From Phycisphaerales bacterium (GTDB lineage Bacteria; Planctomycetota; Phycisphaerae; SM23-33): a stretch of 64,000 nucleotides of DNA. Below the pieces are notes generated by a model. The model was not told where the DNA came from. It searched no databases and saw only the letters and a program-made list of their open reading frames with translations. The translations under genes and the position numbers were made by a program. Below, one piece after another: positions 6,232 to 11,372 of this stretch (positions are counted from its first letter, which is position 1; each line of letters starts with the position of its first letter). The DNA is taken from contig JABGPZ010000044.1 of the NCBI GenBank assembly GCA_018644725.1, positions 1 to 64,000 of the forward strand. The letters are read 5' to 3'.

Positions 6232-7353
6232 CGATCGAGCAACACCGCTCAGTGGCGCTCATCGACAACAACCGAGAATACAGGCCGAAACGCTTGTTCC
6301 TGTGAGATTTTCGAAGTCCAAAAAACTTCTGAAAAATTTCAGAAAACGGGAAAAAGGCCTTGACTCGACCCTCGAAATGGCTTACTTTACGTAGGCTCAG
6401 ACCGCGAGGTCTATAAAGACATCTATATAAAAACAAAAGGAAGAGGTTTTCTCCGGACTACTGCTCAACACTTCAGTCCATTCGAACCTCTTGAACCCGC
6501 GAAGATTTTCTGCGAACTCAGGCTGCAGCTCATTGCACCCGCCGCAACGAATCGAGCGGATCACAATTGAACAAGAGGATCCAGACCCCCTCGGCTATTT
6601 CTCCAGGCTCCCAGTGCGGATTCTGCGTGGGATGGTGCGAAATGGTTTGGAATTTCCTGGAATGCGAACCGCGACCTCACGAGGTCCGTCTATGCCCGCT
6701 TTGGGTGTGTCGGCCTGGAAGTGTCGCACGGTCTATCGCTCGACGCCTACCAATGTGGGTAGGGCGGGCAGTGGCCAGATTCGCAAACCGTGCCTTGGAA
6801 GACGACGAGAAGAGACCGTGCCTTGGACGACGAGGCTCAGAGAGACACCATTCAACCCTGGCTCAGCCCTGCAGCATGGGACGCTCAATCCCGCAGGACG
6901 CATTGACACAAAGGAGGACACGTCGAATAACGAACGCTCAGTTCGGACGCCGCATGCCAAGCCATAGCTCATGGCCGCCGCAGACCGGCATCCACCGTCT
7001 CGGGGTGTTGCGCCACTGGTGCGCAAGGGACCCGTCAGAGATGCGCCAAGAAGACCCGCATCGTACTGGCAAACGAAGAGATCTAGGCATCTACAGATGT
7101 ACACATGACTGGATTTGCATATAAGCCGCTTCCTCAGGCCACTCAAGCCTGATCCGGGACCTCACAAGGCGCAAGACCAATCGCATCCGTCGGGATGGGC
7201 CGCAAGGCCGAAGCGAATTGCAGGACTCACCTGCAGACAACACAACCAACAGGACTCACCTGTTGCCCCTGGCCGGATTGCTCCCCGGCACGAACAGGGA
7301 CGCTCAATGCTCAACAGAGGCCGGCACGACCGGTCCAACGAAAGGACGCTCAA
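6232..7353 (+). ncRNA. long structured non-coding 5' leader with CTCA-loop hairpins
   Basis: No convincing ORF; hairpins e.g. 6878-6892, 6931-6945, 6961-6975, 7134-7152, 7219-7235, 7247-7265, each with GCTC/CTCA in or at the edge of the loop. Confidence 0.5.
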
Positions 7354-8667
7354 ATGAAACGCTCTACTATGGGAACCCGAATTGCATTAGGAATTGTGAT
7401 GTTTGTCCTTGCCGCCAGCAGTGCGCTCGCGGCTGTTCCGACTCGAGAACTCTCCTCCGCCGTGCGCAATTGGTACATCTATTCTGATGGCGACGGGTCA
7501 CAACCGATTGACCCCTCCCAAACCAATGGGATTCTCGACGTGAACGACGACCCGTTCATCGCAACCTTCCAGAACCGCAAGACCACCGACGACAACGCCG
7601 TGGCCTTGACTTCGGCCTCGGCCAGCGCCAACACCACCTCGTTCTACATGAACTATTCCGGCGCGGAAAACCAAAGCTCGATCTACTACCTCACCCAGTC
7701 CAACGGCATCGGCGGCTACAACCGCGCACAGCACGAGCGCTATTCCGACGCCAACGGCCACGCGCTGGGTTGGACGACTCAGTCGGACGCGGGTGGATTT
7801 AACCTGATGACCGTTTCGGTCCACAATGGCGCGAACACCATCAACGATGGTGGCCAGACCTACAACGCCAACCCGCAGGTTGCTTCGGCAACGGGGATGA
7901 ACAACGCCTCCAAAGACCCCATCACCGGCGCACACTACACCCCCAAGTACAACGAGGCGACCGACGCCTACGACGAAGCTGTCAACTACTGGCGCCACAC
8001 CTACCAGGAAGCTGCCTGGGTCGCACAGGACAAGAACACCGAGAACGACAGCTACCGTGGTCTGAAGCTCTTTGATCGCGAAGGCCAAGCGTATGACGGC
8101 GCGCTCAACCCCGCCACCGGCGTCTACAGCGCACTTTACGAACAAGCTGGCACGACCGTGGGCGACTATGGCTACCAAGACACCTTCGTCAACGAAGGCC
8201 AAGGCGGCGTAATCAACGGCCTCGCCGGCACCGAGTTCGAATCGAGCGATCCCGACCGCGTTGAAAACCAACAGGTCATCCGGATCGACTTCGAAGACTT
8301 CAACATGACCTTTGCCGAAGCGACCAGCGAAGGCTTCCTCCTGGAAGAACAGTGGATGGGCGCCTATGACGCAGCTGACCTGGTCAACGCCGTTGACGAG
8401 TTGGTCTTCTACGACTACGGCGCAGCGGGCGATGCCGAAATGATCGCGCTTCTGCTGAACGTTGACCGCAGCCGCACCATGGCCGAAGGTCAAATCTACC
8501 TCGACAACAACGATAACGACATCTTCGACGCAGGCGACTACGCCTTTGCAGACAACCGCGTGTTCATCGCCGAGTTGGACCAGGTTCCTGAACCGGCCAC
8601 GATGAGCCTTCTGGCTCTGGGCGGGCTGGGAATGTTGCGCCGCCGCAAGGCACGCAAGAACGCCTAA
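7354..8667 (+). CDS. PEP-CTERM sorting-domain protein
   Basis: Signal peptide MKRSTMGTRIALGIVMFVLAASSALA and C-terminal VPEPATMSLLALGGLGMLRRRKARKNA; SD AAAGGA 7 nt before ATG. Confidence 0.9.
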   Translation: MKRSTMGTRIALGIVMFVLAASSALAAVPTRELSSAVRNWYIYSDGDGSQPIDPSQTNGILDVNDDPFIATFQNRKTTDDNAVALTSASASANTTSFYMNYSGAENQSSIYYLTQSNGIGGYNRAQHERYSDANGHALGWTTQSDAGGFNLMTVSVHNGANTINDGGQTYNANPQVASATGMNNASKDPITGAHYTPKYNEATDAYDEAVNYWRHTYQEAAWVAQDKNTENDSYRGLKLFDREGQAYDGALNPATGVYSALYEQAGTTVGDYGYQDTFVNEGQGGVINGLAGTEFESSDPDRVENQQVIRIDFEDFNMTFAEATSEGFLLEEQWMGAYDAADLVNAVDELVFYDYGAAGDAEMIALLLNVDRSRTMAEGQIYLDNNDNDIFDAGDYAFADNRVFIAELDQVPEPATMSLLALGGLGMLRRRKARKNA

Positions 8668-8691
8668 CCCCAACTGATGGATCGAAGATGA

Positions 8692-8715
8692 CCCGCCGGA
8701 GCAGAATCCGGCGGG
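8692..8715 (+). other. strong hairpin just after the PEP-CTERM stop codon, without a T-run
   Basis: CCCGCCGGA-GCAGAA-TCCGGCGGG perfect 9-bp stem. Confidence 0.6.
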
Positions 8716-9000
8716 GAGGGCGGACAACGACTGCCCAAAGAGAACCGACAGAACCCCTCCAGGCTGGTTGAGCCGGAGACCCCGATTGACAACTACAGAC
8801 GACCAGGCCGCCGGGGCAACGAATCTCCCGCCCTAGCGCTGCTCCCTGACGCGACAGACAACCACACCTCAGGTTGAGCTGCACGCCAGGGCGGGCAACC
8901 TTCGAGGACCCGACGGCCTGCGATGCGATGAATGCATCGGGAGACACGAGAGGCGCGAGAAACCGCCGCCTCTCCCAACATTCCCTTCGAGCGCGACACC

Positions 9001-9554
9001 GCGCTCAGGACCAACTATCCCAGAGAGCGCGGGCGCTCACAAAACGCGCCACACTATGCAGCACTCAGGAAAAACTATCCCAGAGAGCACAGAGCACCAT
9101 GAGCATGAATTTAGGGGGCCGGATTGAGCCCCGGCTCCCCCTAAATTCCCCCAAGAGTGCCGAGCTTCAAACAACTATCCCAGAGAGCGCGGGCGCGTCC
9201 CGCGAGTATTTGAGCAATGAAGAAGAGTGGATTGAGCTCCACTCGACCCCAGGGCGCCTGAGAGACCGCCCGACGACAGAGCTGAGAGCCTGTCGGCCGC
9301 AGACGTGAGAACTCTGCGCCTCTCAAACATTTCGGGCGCGAATCAAACCGCGACCACGATACATCCCAACGCAAAATTTTCCCAGAGAGCGCGGGCGCGT
9401 CCCGCGAGCATTTGAGCAATGAAGAAGAGTGGATTGAGCTCCACTCAACCCCAGGGCGGAGGTGAGAGACCGCCCGCGACAGAGGTGAGAGCCTGTCGAA
9501 GGCCGCGAGCCTGAGAACTCGCGCCACCATACCGCAGGGCCTGAGAATCCTGCG
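9001..9554 (+). ncRNA. array of TGAG-loop hairpins and internal direct repeats (3' UTR or independent ncRNA)
   Basis: At least nine hairpins with TGAG in the loop plus 66-nt direct repeat 9179-9244 / 9381-9446 (1 mismatch). Confidence 0.6.
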
Positions 9555-9625
9555 ATCAGACTGAACTTCAAGGTTCCGTCTGACGAGAGAGCCCGTGGCC
9601 TGCTGAACGCAGGTCGCTAACGAAG

Positions 9626-9663
9626 AACCCCACCGGATTAGCCTGACATCGGTGGGGTTTTTC
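9626..9663 (+). terminator. rho-independent terminator ending the PEP-CTERM/hairpin-array transcript
   Basis: AACCCCACCG...CGGTGGGGTTTTT. Confidence 0.85.
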
Positions 9664-9740
9664 TATGCGCACACGGAATGGGGGACTCTTGTGGTTTGCT
9701 GCTGGCTGCGGCGTCGGCCTATGCGCACACGGAATGGGGG
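9663..9740. repeat. 22-bp perfect direct repeat pair, 56-bp offset
   Basis: CTATGCGCACACGGAATGGGGG at 9663-9684 and 9719-9740. Confidence 0.85.
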
Positions 9741-9866: not shown

Positions 9867-11372
9867 ATGAATATTCAACACAACCGTCGACGTTTTCTGC
9901 AACTGATGGGCACTACTGCAGCCGGCATGGCGTTGCCACGTGCCGCTCGGGCGGCTGATGCCAAACTCGCGACAGCTCCCAAATCGGCCACGCCCAACTT
10001 TATCGTCATTTTAGCTGACGACCAGGGCTATCAGGACATGGGGTGTTTCGGGTCGCCGAAGATCAAGACGCCGAACCTCGATCAGATGGCCAAAGAGGGC
10101 ATGCGGTTCACCGATTTCTATTCGGCCTGTTCGATCTGCTCGCCATCGCGCGCGGCATTGCTGACGGGCTGCTATCCGCCGCGCATCGGCTTGACGCGAG
10201 TTCTTTTTCCGCGTGATCCCGCCGGCCTGAACCCCCAAGAGACCACCATTGCCGACCTGCTCAAGACGCGCGGCTATGCCACGGCCTGTGTGGGCAAATG
10301 GCACATCGGCCACCTGCCGAAATTCCTGCCGACCAGCCAGGGCTTCGACAGCTACTTCGGCATTCCGTATTCCAACGACATGACGATCGCGAAGAACATG
10401 ACCGCCGCCAAGGACGCGAAACTGCCCGACGGCATGACGGCCAAGTCGATGAAAACCGCGCCGGAGAAAAAGAACCACGTCCCGCTTATGCGCGACACCG
10501 AGGTCATCGAATATCCCTGCGACCAGTCCACGCTCACCCAGCGCTACACGGCCGAGGCGATCAAGTTTATCACCGCGAGCAAGGACAAGCCGTTCTTCCT
10601 CTACATGCCCCACACCATGCCCCATACTCCGCTGTTCGCGTCGCCAAAGTTCAAGGGTAAATCTGCGCGCGGGCTCTATGGCGACGTGATCGAGGAGATG
10701 GACTGGTCGGTCGGTGAGATCCGCAAGACGCTCAAGGCGCTCGGGATCGACAAGAACACGCTCGTGATCTACACGTCCGACAACGGCCCGTGGTTGAGCA
10801 AGGGCAAAGATGGCGGCTGTGCTAAACCCTTGCGCGGCGCGAAATTCGATACGTGGGATGGCGGGATGCGCGAACCGACCGTGATGAGTTGGACCGGGAC
10901 GATCCCGGCCGGGACGGTGTGCAAAGAGGTCGCTTCGACCATTGATCTCCTGCCGACGCTCGCGAAACTCGCCGGCGCGAAATTGCCCGAGGTGACGATT
11001 GATGGGAAGGACATTTACCCGCTGCTGGCGGGGACACCGGACGCGAAATCGCCCCACGACGCATTCTATTTTTACCGTCACGATAACCTTGAAGCCGTCC
11101 GCTCGGGGCAATGGAAACTGCGCAAGGGCGCACTGTACAATCTGCGCGCGGACATTTCCGAGAGCAAGGACGTGGCCGCGAAGCATCCCGATGTCGTCAA
11201 GCGTCTCAAGGCGATGATGAAGACCTTCGATGCCAAGCTCAAGGCCAACTCCAGGCCTCTTGGTGGGGCCCTCGCTGCAAAGAAACCGAAATCGAAGCCG
11301 AAAAACAAACCAAAGCCAAAGCCAAAACCGAAGTCGAAAAAGAAAAAATCCCGCACGGCGGAGAGCATCTAG
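9867..11372 (+). CDS. formylglycine-type sulfatase (arylsulfatase A family), Tat-like signal
   Basis: RRRFLQLMGTTAAGMALPRAARA signal; CSPSRAALLTG sulfatase signature; CVGKWHIG; K/P-rich C-terminal tail. Confidence 0.93.
   Translation: MNIQHNRRRFLQLMGTTAAGMALPRAARAADAKLATAPKSATPNFIVILADDQGYQDMGCFGSPKIKTPNLDQMAKEGMRFTDFYSACSICSPSRAALLTGCYPPRIGLTRVLFPRDPAGLNPQETTIADLLKTRGYATACVGKWHIGHLPKFLPTSQGFDSYFGIPYSNDMTIAKNMTAAKDAKLPDGMTAKSMKTAPEKKNHVPLMRDTEVIEYPCDQSTLTQRYTAEAIKFITASKDKPFFLYMPHTMPHTPLFASPKFKGKSARGLYGDVIEEMDWSVGEIRKTLKALGIDKNTLVIYTSDNGPWLSKGKDGGCAKPLRGAKFDTWDGGMREPTVMSWTGTIPAGTVCKEVASTIDLLPTLAKLAGAKLPEVTIDGKDIYPLLAGTPDAKSPHDAFYFYRHDNLEAVRSGQWKLRKGALYNLRADISESKDVAAKHPDVVKRLKAMMKTFDAKLKANSRPLGGALAAKKPKSKPKNKPKPKPKPKSKKKKSRTAESI

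Follow-up and report, generated by a model that had tools for sequence, protein, structure and literature searches.

We analyzed a 64,000-nucleotide stretch of a Phycisphaerales bacterium genome (here, the window), in which a PEP-CTERM surface protein gene is followed directly, on the same strand, by an array of hairpins. The 437-amino-acid protein scores 28.5 bits against PF07589 (cut-off 20.7) and 22.8 against TIGR02595 (cut-off 16). Downstream of the array is a sulfatase gene (9867-11372), the C-terminal end of which (11270-11372) encodes a long lysine/proline-rich tail, KPKSKPKNKPKPKPKPKSKKKKS. The gene and the parts of the array are as follows.

7354-8667, + strand: PEP-CTERM surface protein gene, 437 aa, signal peptide-like N terminus (PF07589, TIGR02595)
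8668-9621, + strand: structured UGAG-rich RNA region, a 3'UTR or a separate RNA (fold z score, TGAG count)
9107-9148, + strand: long hairpin with inner loop ATTGAGCC (12-bp perfect inverted repeat, 9107-9118/9137-9148)
9173-9265, + strand: first copy of a ~202-nt tandem repeat, 93 nt aligned
9225-9244, + strand: hairpin GAGTGGA-TTGAGC-TCCACTC (hairpin scan)
9252-9271, + strand: hairpin GGGCG-CCTGAGAGAC-CGCCC (hairpin scan)
9274-9295, + strand: hairpin CGACAG-AGCTGAGAGC-CTGTCG (hairpin scan)
9298-9318, + strand: hairpin CGCAGA-CGTGAGAAC-TCTGCG (hairpin scan)
9375-9467, + strand: second copy of the ~202-nt tandem repeat, 91% identical
9409-9421, + strand: hairpin CATT-TGAGC-AATG, overlooked in the original prediction
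9427-9446, + strand: hairpin GAGTGGA-TTGAGC-TCCACTC, second copy (hairpin scan)
9454-9475, + strand: hairpin GGGCGG-AGGTGAGAGA-CCGCCC, which fits the pattern GGAGRTGAGMGMCC (hairpin scan)
9477-9498, + strand: hairpin CGACAG-AGGTGAGAGC-CTGTCG (hairpin scan)
9504-9523, + strand: hairpin CGCGAG-CCTGAGAA-CTCGCG, with compensated changes relative to the copy at 9298 (hairpin scan)
9533-9554, + strand: hairpin CGCAGG-GCCTGAGAAT-CCTGCG (hairpin scan)
9622-9663, + strand: terminator-like hairpin and TTTTTC closing the array (93% inverted repeat 9622-9635/9650-9663, predicted fold)

Directly after the array terminator is a 22-nt perfect direct repeat, CTATGCGCACACGGAATGGGGG (9663-9684 and 9719-9740), found nowhere else in the window. 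The window also contains three pairs of Rfam Acido-Lenti-1 RNAs (RF01687; 4173-4428, 31314-31502, and 37223-37413). The members of each pair lie in opposite orientation, 97 to 164 nt apart, around a smaller palindrome; this arrangement suggests dispersed REP- or MITE-like inverted elements more than independent RNA genes.

An array of UGAG-loop hairpins

We scanned mechanically for hairpins with TGAG within a 6- to 10-nt loop and a stem of at least 5 bp, and recovered on the + strand all ten of the TGAG-loop hairpins that the original prediction had placed between 9108 and 9554. Within 8680-9620, these 10 hairpins compare with a mean of 0.154 and a maximum of 2 in 500 dinucleotide-preserving shuffles, although they are not independent, given that 9173-9265 and 9375-9467 are 91% identical copies lying 202 nt apart; about half of the array hairpins are products of this tandem duplication. 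The objection raised with the prediction, that shuffled sequences might yield equally many TGAG hairpins, fails on this comparison. When we counted tetramers in the loops of perfect hairpins, with no word picked beforehand, TGAG was the most frequent (10 occurrences), and no tetramer exceeded 3 in the shuffles. TGAG occurs 15 times in the array compared to 6.1 expected; the five sites beyond the ten hairpins are at 8769, 8875, 9100, 9211, and 9413, the last of these within the CATT-TGAGC-AATG hairpin. The loops are of two types, UUGAGC (9118, 9225, and 9427) and nnUGAGAnn (the remainder), and the long hairpin at 9107-9148 encloses GCCGG-ATTGAGCC-CCGGC (9118-9135). The fold z score of 8680-9665 is -12.0 on the + strand and -6.1 on the - strand.

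A scan of both strands over approximately 391 kb of this genome found nine TGAG hairpins with stems of at least 6 bp; these show no RNA-like clustering, the sole close pair being within a coding gene. Searches for similar TGAG-array copies elsewhere in the genome and for a sigma54-type site near the array found none. No Rfam 15 family matched 8680-9665 at gathering level, the best sub-threshold matches scoring 16 to 17 bits. We also weighed reading UGAGA as a TPP-riboswitch/T-loop or GNRA element and set this aside; Rfam gave no TPP match.

The tandem duplication, together with the other REP-like palindromes in the window, could indicate a decaying, functionless cluster of duplicated REP-like palindromes. 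We give this reading almost no credence. Between the repeat copies, the stem CGCAGA/TCTGCG (9298-9318) has become CGCGAG/CTCGCG (9504-9523), a compensated change around the same loop, and the loops have been kept. In addition, similar copies are absent from the rest of the genome, and syntenic RNA is present in two other genera (below).

A CUCA-rich leader upstream of the same gene

Approximately 2 kb upstream of the UGAG array, the 5' leader of the PEP-CTERM gene contains a second cluster, which was absent from the original prediction.

6360-6388, + strand: weak sigma70-like leader promoter TTGACT-N17-TACTTT (by eye; placed from the TTGAC-N17-TATAAT-like promoters of orthologs)
6395-7353, + strand: CUCA-rich long 5' leader of the PEP-CTERM gene, ~960 nt (word counts)
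6524-6537, + strand: CUCA-loop hairpin TGCA-GCTCAT-TGCA
6878-6892, + strand: CUCA-loop hairpin GGGA-CGCTCAA-TCCC
6931-6945, + strand: CUCA-loop hairpin CGAAC-GCTCA-GTTCG
6961-6975, + strand: CUCA-loop hairpin GCCA-TAGCTCA-TGGC
7134-7152, + strand: CUCA-loop hairpin TCAGGC-CACTCAA-GCCTGA
7219-7235, + strand: CUCA-loop hairpin TGCAGG-ACTCA-CCTGCA
7247-7265, + strand: CUCA-loop hairpin CAACAGG-ACTCA-CCTGTTG
7344-7356, + strand: GGACGCTCAA followed by the ATG start codon, with GCUCA between the ribosome-binding site and the start (sequence, orthologs)

A scripted promoter scan did not accept the sigma70-like promoter at 6360-6388. In the leader (6395-7374), CTCA occurs 18 times compared to 6.0 expected, GCTCA 11 times compared to 1.7, and TGAG not at all compared to 4.0. 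The word GGACGCTCAA is present three times, and its third copy abuts the ATG. The seven CUCA-loop hairpins (6524-7265) form the sole cluster of four or more on one strand in the approximately 460 kb sampled, barring the reverse strand of the array. The leader fold is only moderate (z score -1.7). In the same loop-tetramer count, again with no preset word, CTCA was the top tetramer of the leader hairpin loops (4 occurrences, with 3 or fewer in shuffles).

The loop word of the leader, CTCA, and that of the array, TGAG, are exact reverse complements. Loop-loop pairs between leader and array with at least four complementary nucleotides number 54, compared to 1.36 (maximum 9) in shuffles. Two clusters that are both unusual in the approximately 390 to 460 kb of genome sampled flank one gene. 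The original prediction had proposed that the array is a repeated site for a protein or for a complementary RNA loop. The RNA-loop half of this proposal gains support from the CUCA leader hairpins and from the GCUCA-enriched ortholog leaders described below; regarding a protein partner, we found no evidence for or against.

GCUCA-rich leaders in orthologs from other genera

The leaders of PEP-CTERM orthologs in other genera are rich in the same word. GCTCA was observed 16 times compared to 0.6 expected in genome G024, 12 compared to 1.6 in G017, and 12 compared to 0.9 in G012, and by shuffling it is enriched at p <= 0.02 in 10 of the 13 ortholog leaders; these statistics lack phylogenetic independence, and the window had been seen before the motif words were picked. 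Two checks were blind in this respect: the loop-tetramer count and a gene-blind search for GCUCA clusters. The GCTCA-rich leaders come after sigma70-like, TTGAC-N17-TATAAT-like promoters. In several orthologs, GCUCA follows the ribosome-binding site, ahead of the AUG, and recurs in the first codons. The leader hairpin loops of G017 are CGCUCA(A), and CGCUCA complements UGAGCG.

Downstream of the ortholog, G017 has five UGAG-loop hairpins and G024 has three, in regions with fold z scores of -8.1 and -7.8, respectively. The layout of the window (gene order, strand, a strong fold, and UGAG loops 3' of the PEP-CTERM gene) therefore recurs in both genomes.

In the gene-blind search, which covered clustered TGCTCA across the family, a PEP-CTERM start lay just downstream in 7 of the 21 first-per-genome loci (L336, L337, L339, L346, L349, L350, and L353); for comparison, PEP-CTERM genes perhaps make up 1 to 3% of all genes, a share that is itself inferred. 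Among 48 unselected PEP-CTERM genes, there was no strong GCTCA signal, the best related word being CTGCTCA (6 of 48 compared to 6 of 630). The rule that every PEP-CTERM gene has GCUCA at its start was not upheld on this set, and an earlier positive result had been inflated, the loci having been picked by motif. Given that unselected PEP-CTERM genes lack GCTCA as a rule, only a subset is marked. The pattern of a Shine-Dalgarno sequence, GCUCA, and ATG was also tried on its own and set aside; it was approximately twofold over the reversed control, and its matches were mixed.

The GCTCA and TGAGC sites upstream and downstream of the gene are inverted relative to each other, as might be expected if a DNA-binding protein read them on both sides of the gene, in which case the hairpins would be cruciforms or by-products. 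We consider this very improbable. The strand asymmetry of the leader (18 CTCA, no TGAG) points to RNA, as do the strong fold bias toward the + strand, the compensated stems, and the position of the ortholog sites, which follow promoter-like sequences and adjoin start codons.

A family of structured RNAs with UGAGCG and UGAGCA loops

BLASTN with the whole array against 61 relatives gave no match. A shorter query gave one weak match (E 0.01, L011), which led to the word GGAGRTGAGMGMCC and from there to a structured RNA found in relatives (here, the family RNA). The word occurs in 22 of 36 family genomes, often as pairs approximately 90 to 110 nt apart, and the reversed word is nearly absent. In a GTDB scan, the paired form fell in Phycisphaerae/Planctomycetota metagenome-assembled genomes. 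Matches with two GAGATGAGCG words outside Planctomycetes appear to be coding sequence or simple repeats and were discarded, as were viral-contig matches to TCCCAGAGAGCGCGGG, which are loci without a TGAG array; the two-motif pattern was not found in viral contigs.

The family RNA is approximately 300 to 370 nt long. The loop AGAUGAGCGC occurs on two of its hairpins; a second hairpin comes after each of them, and in domain 2 the loop of this second hairpin has UCUCCUCC in nearly all copies. There is a long-range GGUAG..CUACC stem, and at the 3' end a hairpin whose loop is of the YUGAGCA type is followed by a U-run and GCGC. The GCGC is kept after the U-run at many loci (L072, L076, L083, L088, L090, L091, L096, and others). 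UUUGC could base-pair with the GC(A/G)AA that precedes the final hairpin, and the tail may thus form a structural stem as well as a terminator. The UCUCCUCC loop complements Shine-Dalgarno sequences and also the GGAGA flanking the neighboring UGAG loop, and an internal kissing state of the RNA via UCUCCUCC and GGAGA is possible.

The family RNA has no match in Rfam 15. We built a covariance model of its 3' end, R1 (GGGCGA-[stem]-YUGAGCA-[stem]-UCGCCC-U-run-GCGC), which gives strong matches in the majority of the 36 family genomes, frequently as two or three tandem copies, and none in 399 genomes of a phylum-wide sample (strict filters, E <= 1e-4). In the genome of the window, R1 has no match at E < 0.9; the best hit (E 0.96) lies elsewhere. 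A hairpin of the form stem-GGAGRUGAGMGMCC-stem has one copy in the window, at 9454-9475, a short single motif that is not proof of homology. Without an R1 match, homology of the array to the family RNA is unproven, and the two are linked by their loops, their layout, and their target.

The stems of the family UGAG hairpins covary. The covariation score is 0.723, compared to 0.304 for shuffled and at most 0.277 for slid alignments, and 64 cells are doubly changed compared to 18.8; the loop was fixed by how the sequences were picked, whereas the stems were not. The prediction's second objection, that homologous loci might keep the stems and lose the loops, is thus answered in the opposite direction, as the relatives keep the loop and their stems covary. 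An invariant loop on freely changing stems, in multiple copies per RNA, is also the classic appearance of a repeated RNA-binding-protein site, and the array might hold or titrate such a protein independently of the CUCA leader. We regard this explanation as fairly unlikely. It does not predict the exact complement of the loop in the neighboring leader, in ortholog leaders, and at GCUCA-cluster genes, and a protein decoy should share the motif of its target rather than carry its complement.

Genomic setting of the family RNA

The family RNA lies just downstream of a gene for a protein of approximately 150 amino acids in at least 12 of 20 loci. This gene is commonly preceded by one for a sigma54 activator with AAA+ and Fis domains and no receiver domain, and a histidine kinase and a receiver-GGDEF protein are encoded nearby. 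The ~150-aa protein has no match in Pfam. It is predicted to be a CheY-like receiver (pLDDT 80), and its top Foldseek matches are receiver domains. The idea that the RNA is an ANTAR target was dropped, given that the predicted fold of this protein is a CheY-like domain alone and that it lacks a Pfam match.

Sigma54-type sites (score of at least 9 of 11) are present upstream of 11 of 17 copies of the family RNA, compared to 6.7% of control stretches, and perfect sites precede extra copies of the RNA (L140 and L146). On contig C111 of genome G000, a diverged receiver-like gene stands behind a perfect sigma54-type site with a leader hairpin, TACGGC-CGTGAGAAA-GCCGTA, and no family RNA adjoins it. 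At this locus (L157:10168-10264, - strand), the perfect promoter, TGGCACGACAATTGCA, is followed by the hairpin, then by the receiver-like gene itself, and then by another PEP-CTERM gene.

The location of the family RNA bears on a further explanation, that leader and 3'UTR zip together within one mRNA and so circularize or protect the PEP-CTERM message, the RNA of relatives being independent. A single gene does lie between leader and array, all on the same strand and with no terminator evident in 8668-9621, and G017 and G024 show the same layout. In most relatives, however, genes with GCUCA leaders lack a 3' UGAG array and the UGAGC RNA is located elsewhere, which favors action in trans. We therefore judge zipping to be quite unlikely.

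Proposed mechanism

Our preferred reading, which the sequence patterns make reasonably likely, is that the array belongs to a structured, base-pairing RNA whose UGAG loops contact CUCA/GCUCA sites in the leader. The array would be the loop-presenting part of this RNA, which may be the 3'UTR of the PEP-CTERM mRNA or may be cut from that mRNA. The UGAG loops would make several short kissing contacts with CUCA/GCUCA loops and with single-stranded leader sites, among them the GCUCA that comes after the ribosome-binding site and before the AUG. The pairing seed is short (4 to 6 nt), and at the 7 of 15 array sites that are UGAGA rather than UGAGC, pairing with GCUCA extends over four letters only. 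Such weak contacts could sum to specific, additive, multivalent binding along the ~900-nt leader. The most likely effect of this pairing would be lowered or gated translation of the surface protein, and 30S binding at GGACGCUCAAAUG may be blocked. Transcription of the array, the pairing itself, its effect on translation and the direction of that effect, and action in cis, in trans, or both in the window are all what we infer from these patterns.

The structured RNA with UGAGCG/UGAGCA loops probably fills this role in relatives, acting in trans; its targets would be the GCUCA-marked subset of PEP-CTERM mRNAs. The loop order of the family RNA, UGAGCG followed by UCUCCUCC, is the antiparallel complement of the GGAG..GCUCA at target starts, which suggests a block of translation initiation as in Staphylococcus aureus RNAIII (PMC2837412).

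Comparison with known systems

Base-pairing RNAs with loop contacts are already known. RNAIII is a large structured RNA that represses exported and surface proteins by pairing near the Shine-Dalgarno sequence together with loop-loop contacts (PMC2837412). The array resembles it in having loops complementary to a candidate target mRNA. It differs in that a single four-letter loop core is repeated many times and faces many copies of its complement, in its phylum, and in its lack of an Rfam family match; in addition, repression has been shown for RNAIII, whereas here it is a prediction. The RNA of relatives resembles the sigma54/LuxO-dependent Qrr RNAs of Vibrio in several respects: it is encoded beside a sigma54 activator gene, many of its loci have a sigma54-type promoter in front, it occurs in multiple copies, and it apparently has several mRNA targets. 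It differs from Qrr in being approximately three times longer and highly folded, in its UGAG loops, in its position after a receiver-like gene, and in lacking an Rfam match. The CsrB/RsmZ sponges share with the array many hairpins bearing one repeated loop word; however, that word is UGAG rather than GGA in the array, its complement sits in the target leader, and the GG beside the loop in relatives is base-paired within the stem.

In Proteobacteria, the PrsK/PrsR/RpoN system connects sigma54 to PEP-CTERM genes with long upstream non-coding regions (PMC1569441; PMC9850573). There, sigma54 acts at the PEP-CTERM promoter; here, sigma70-like promoters precede the leaders, and it is the RNA loci that have sigma54-type sites. 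The activator of relatives is not PrsR, scoring 258.4 bits against TIGR02915 (cut-off 502.6). Unusually long PEP-CTERM upstream non-coding regions were noted in 2006, with an explanation for the proteobacterial sigma54 class alone (PMC1569441). Our literature search did not find a many-loop array facing a many-loop leader in an RNA family that lacks an Rfam entry and is directed at PEP-CTERM genes. We give roughly even chances to the broader proposal that this is an undescribed RNA regulatory system, belonging to one family of planctomycetes, in which UGAG arrays (in relatives, at sigma54-type promoters) pair with GCUCA arrays in the leaders of exosortase-sorted PEP-CTERM genes and in which specificity is a matter of many weak loop-loop contacts and not of a single long seed.

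Environmental bacteria have large sets of surface proteins of the PEP-CTERM/exosortase type. For some of the long PEP-CTERM leaders outside Proteobacteria, the pairing proposed here offers a testable reason. The family RNA adds one RNA family beyond Rfam 15, and the arrangement suggests multivalent short-loop pairing as a mode of target recognition by RNA.
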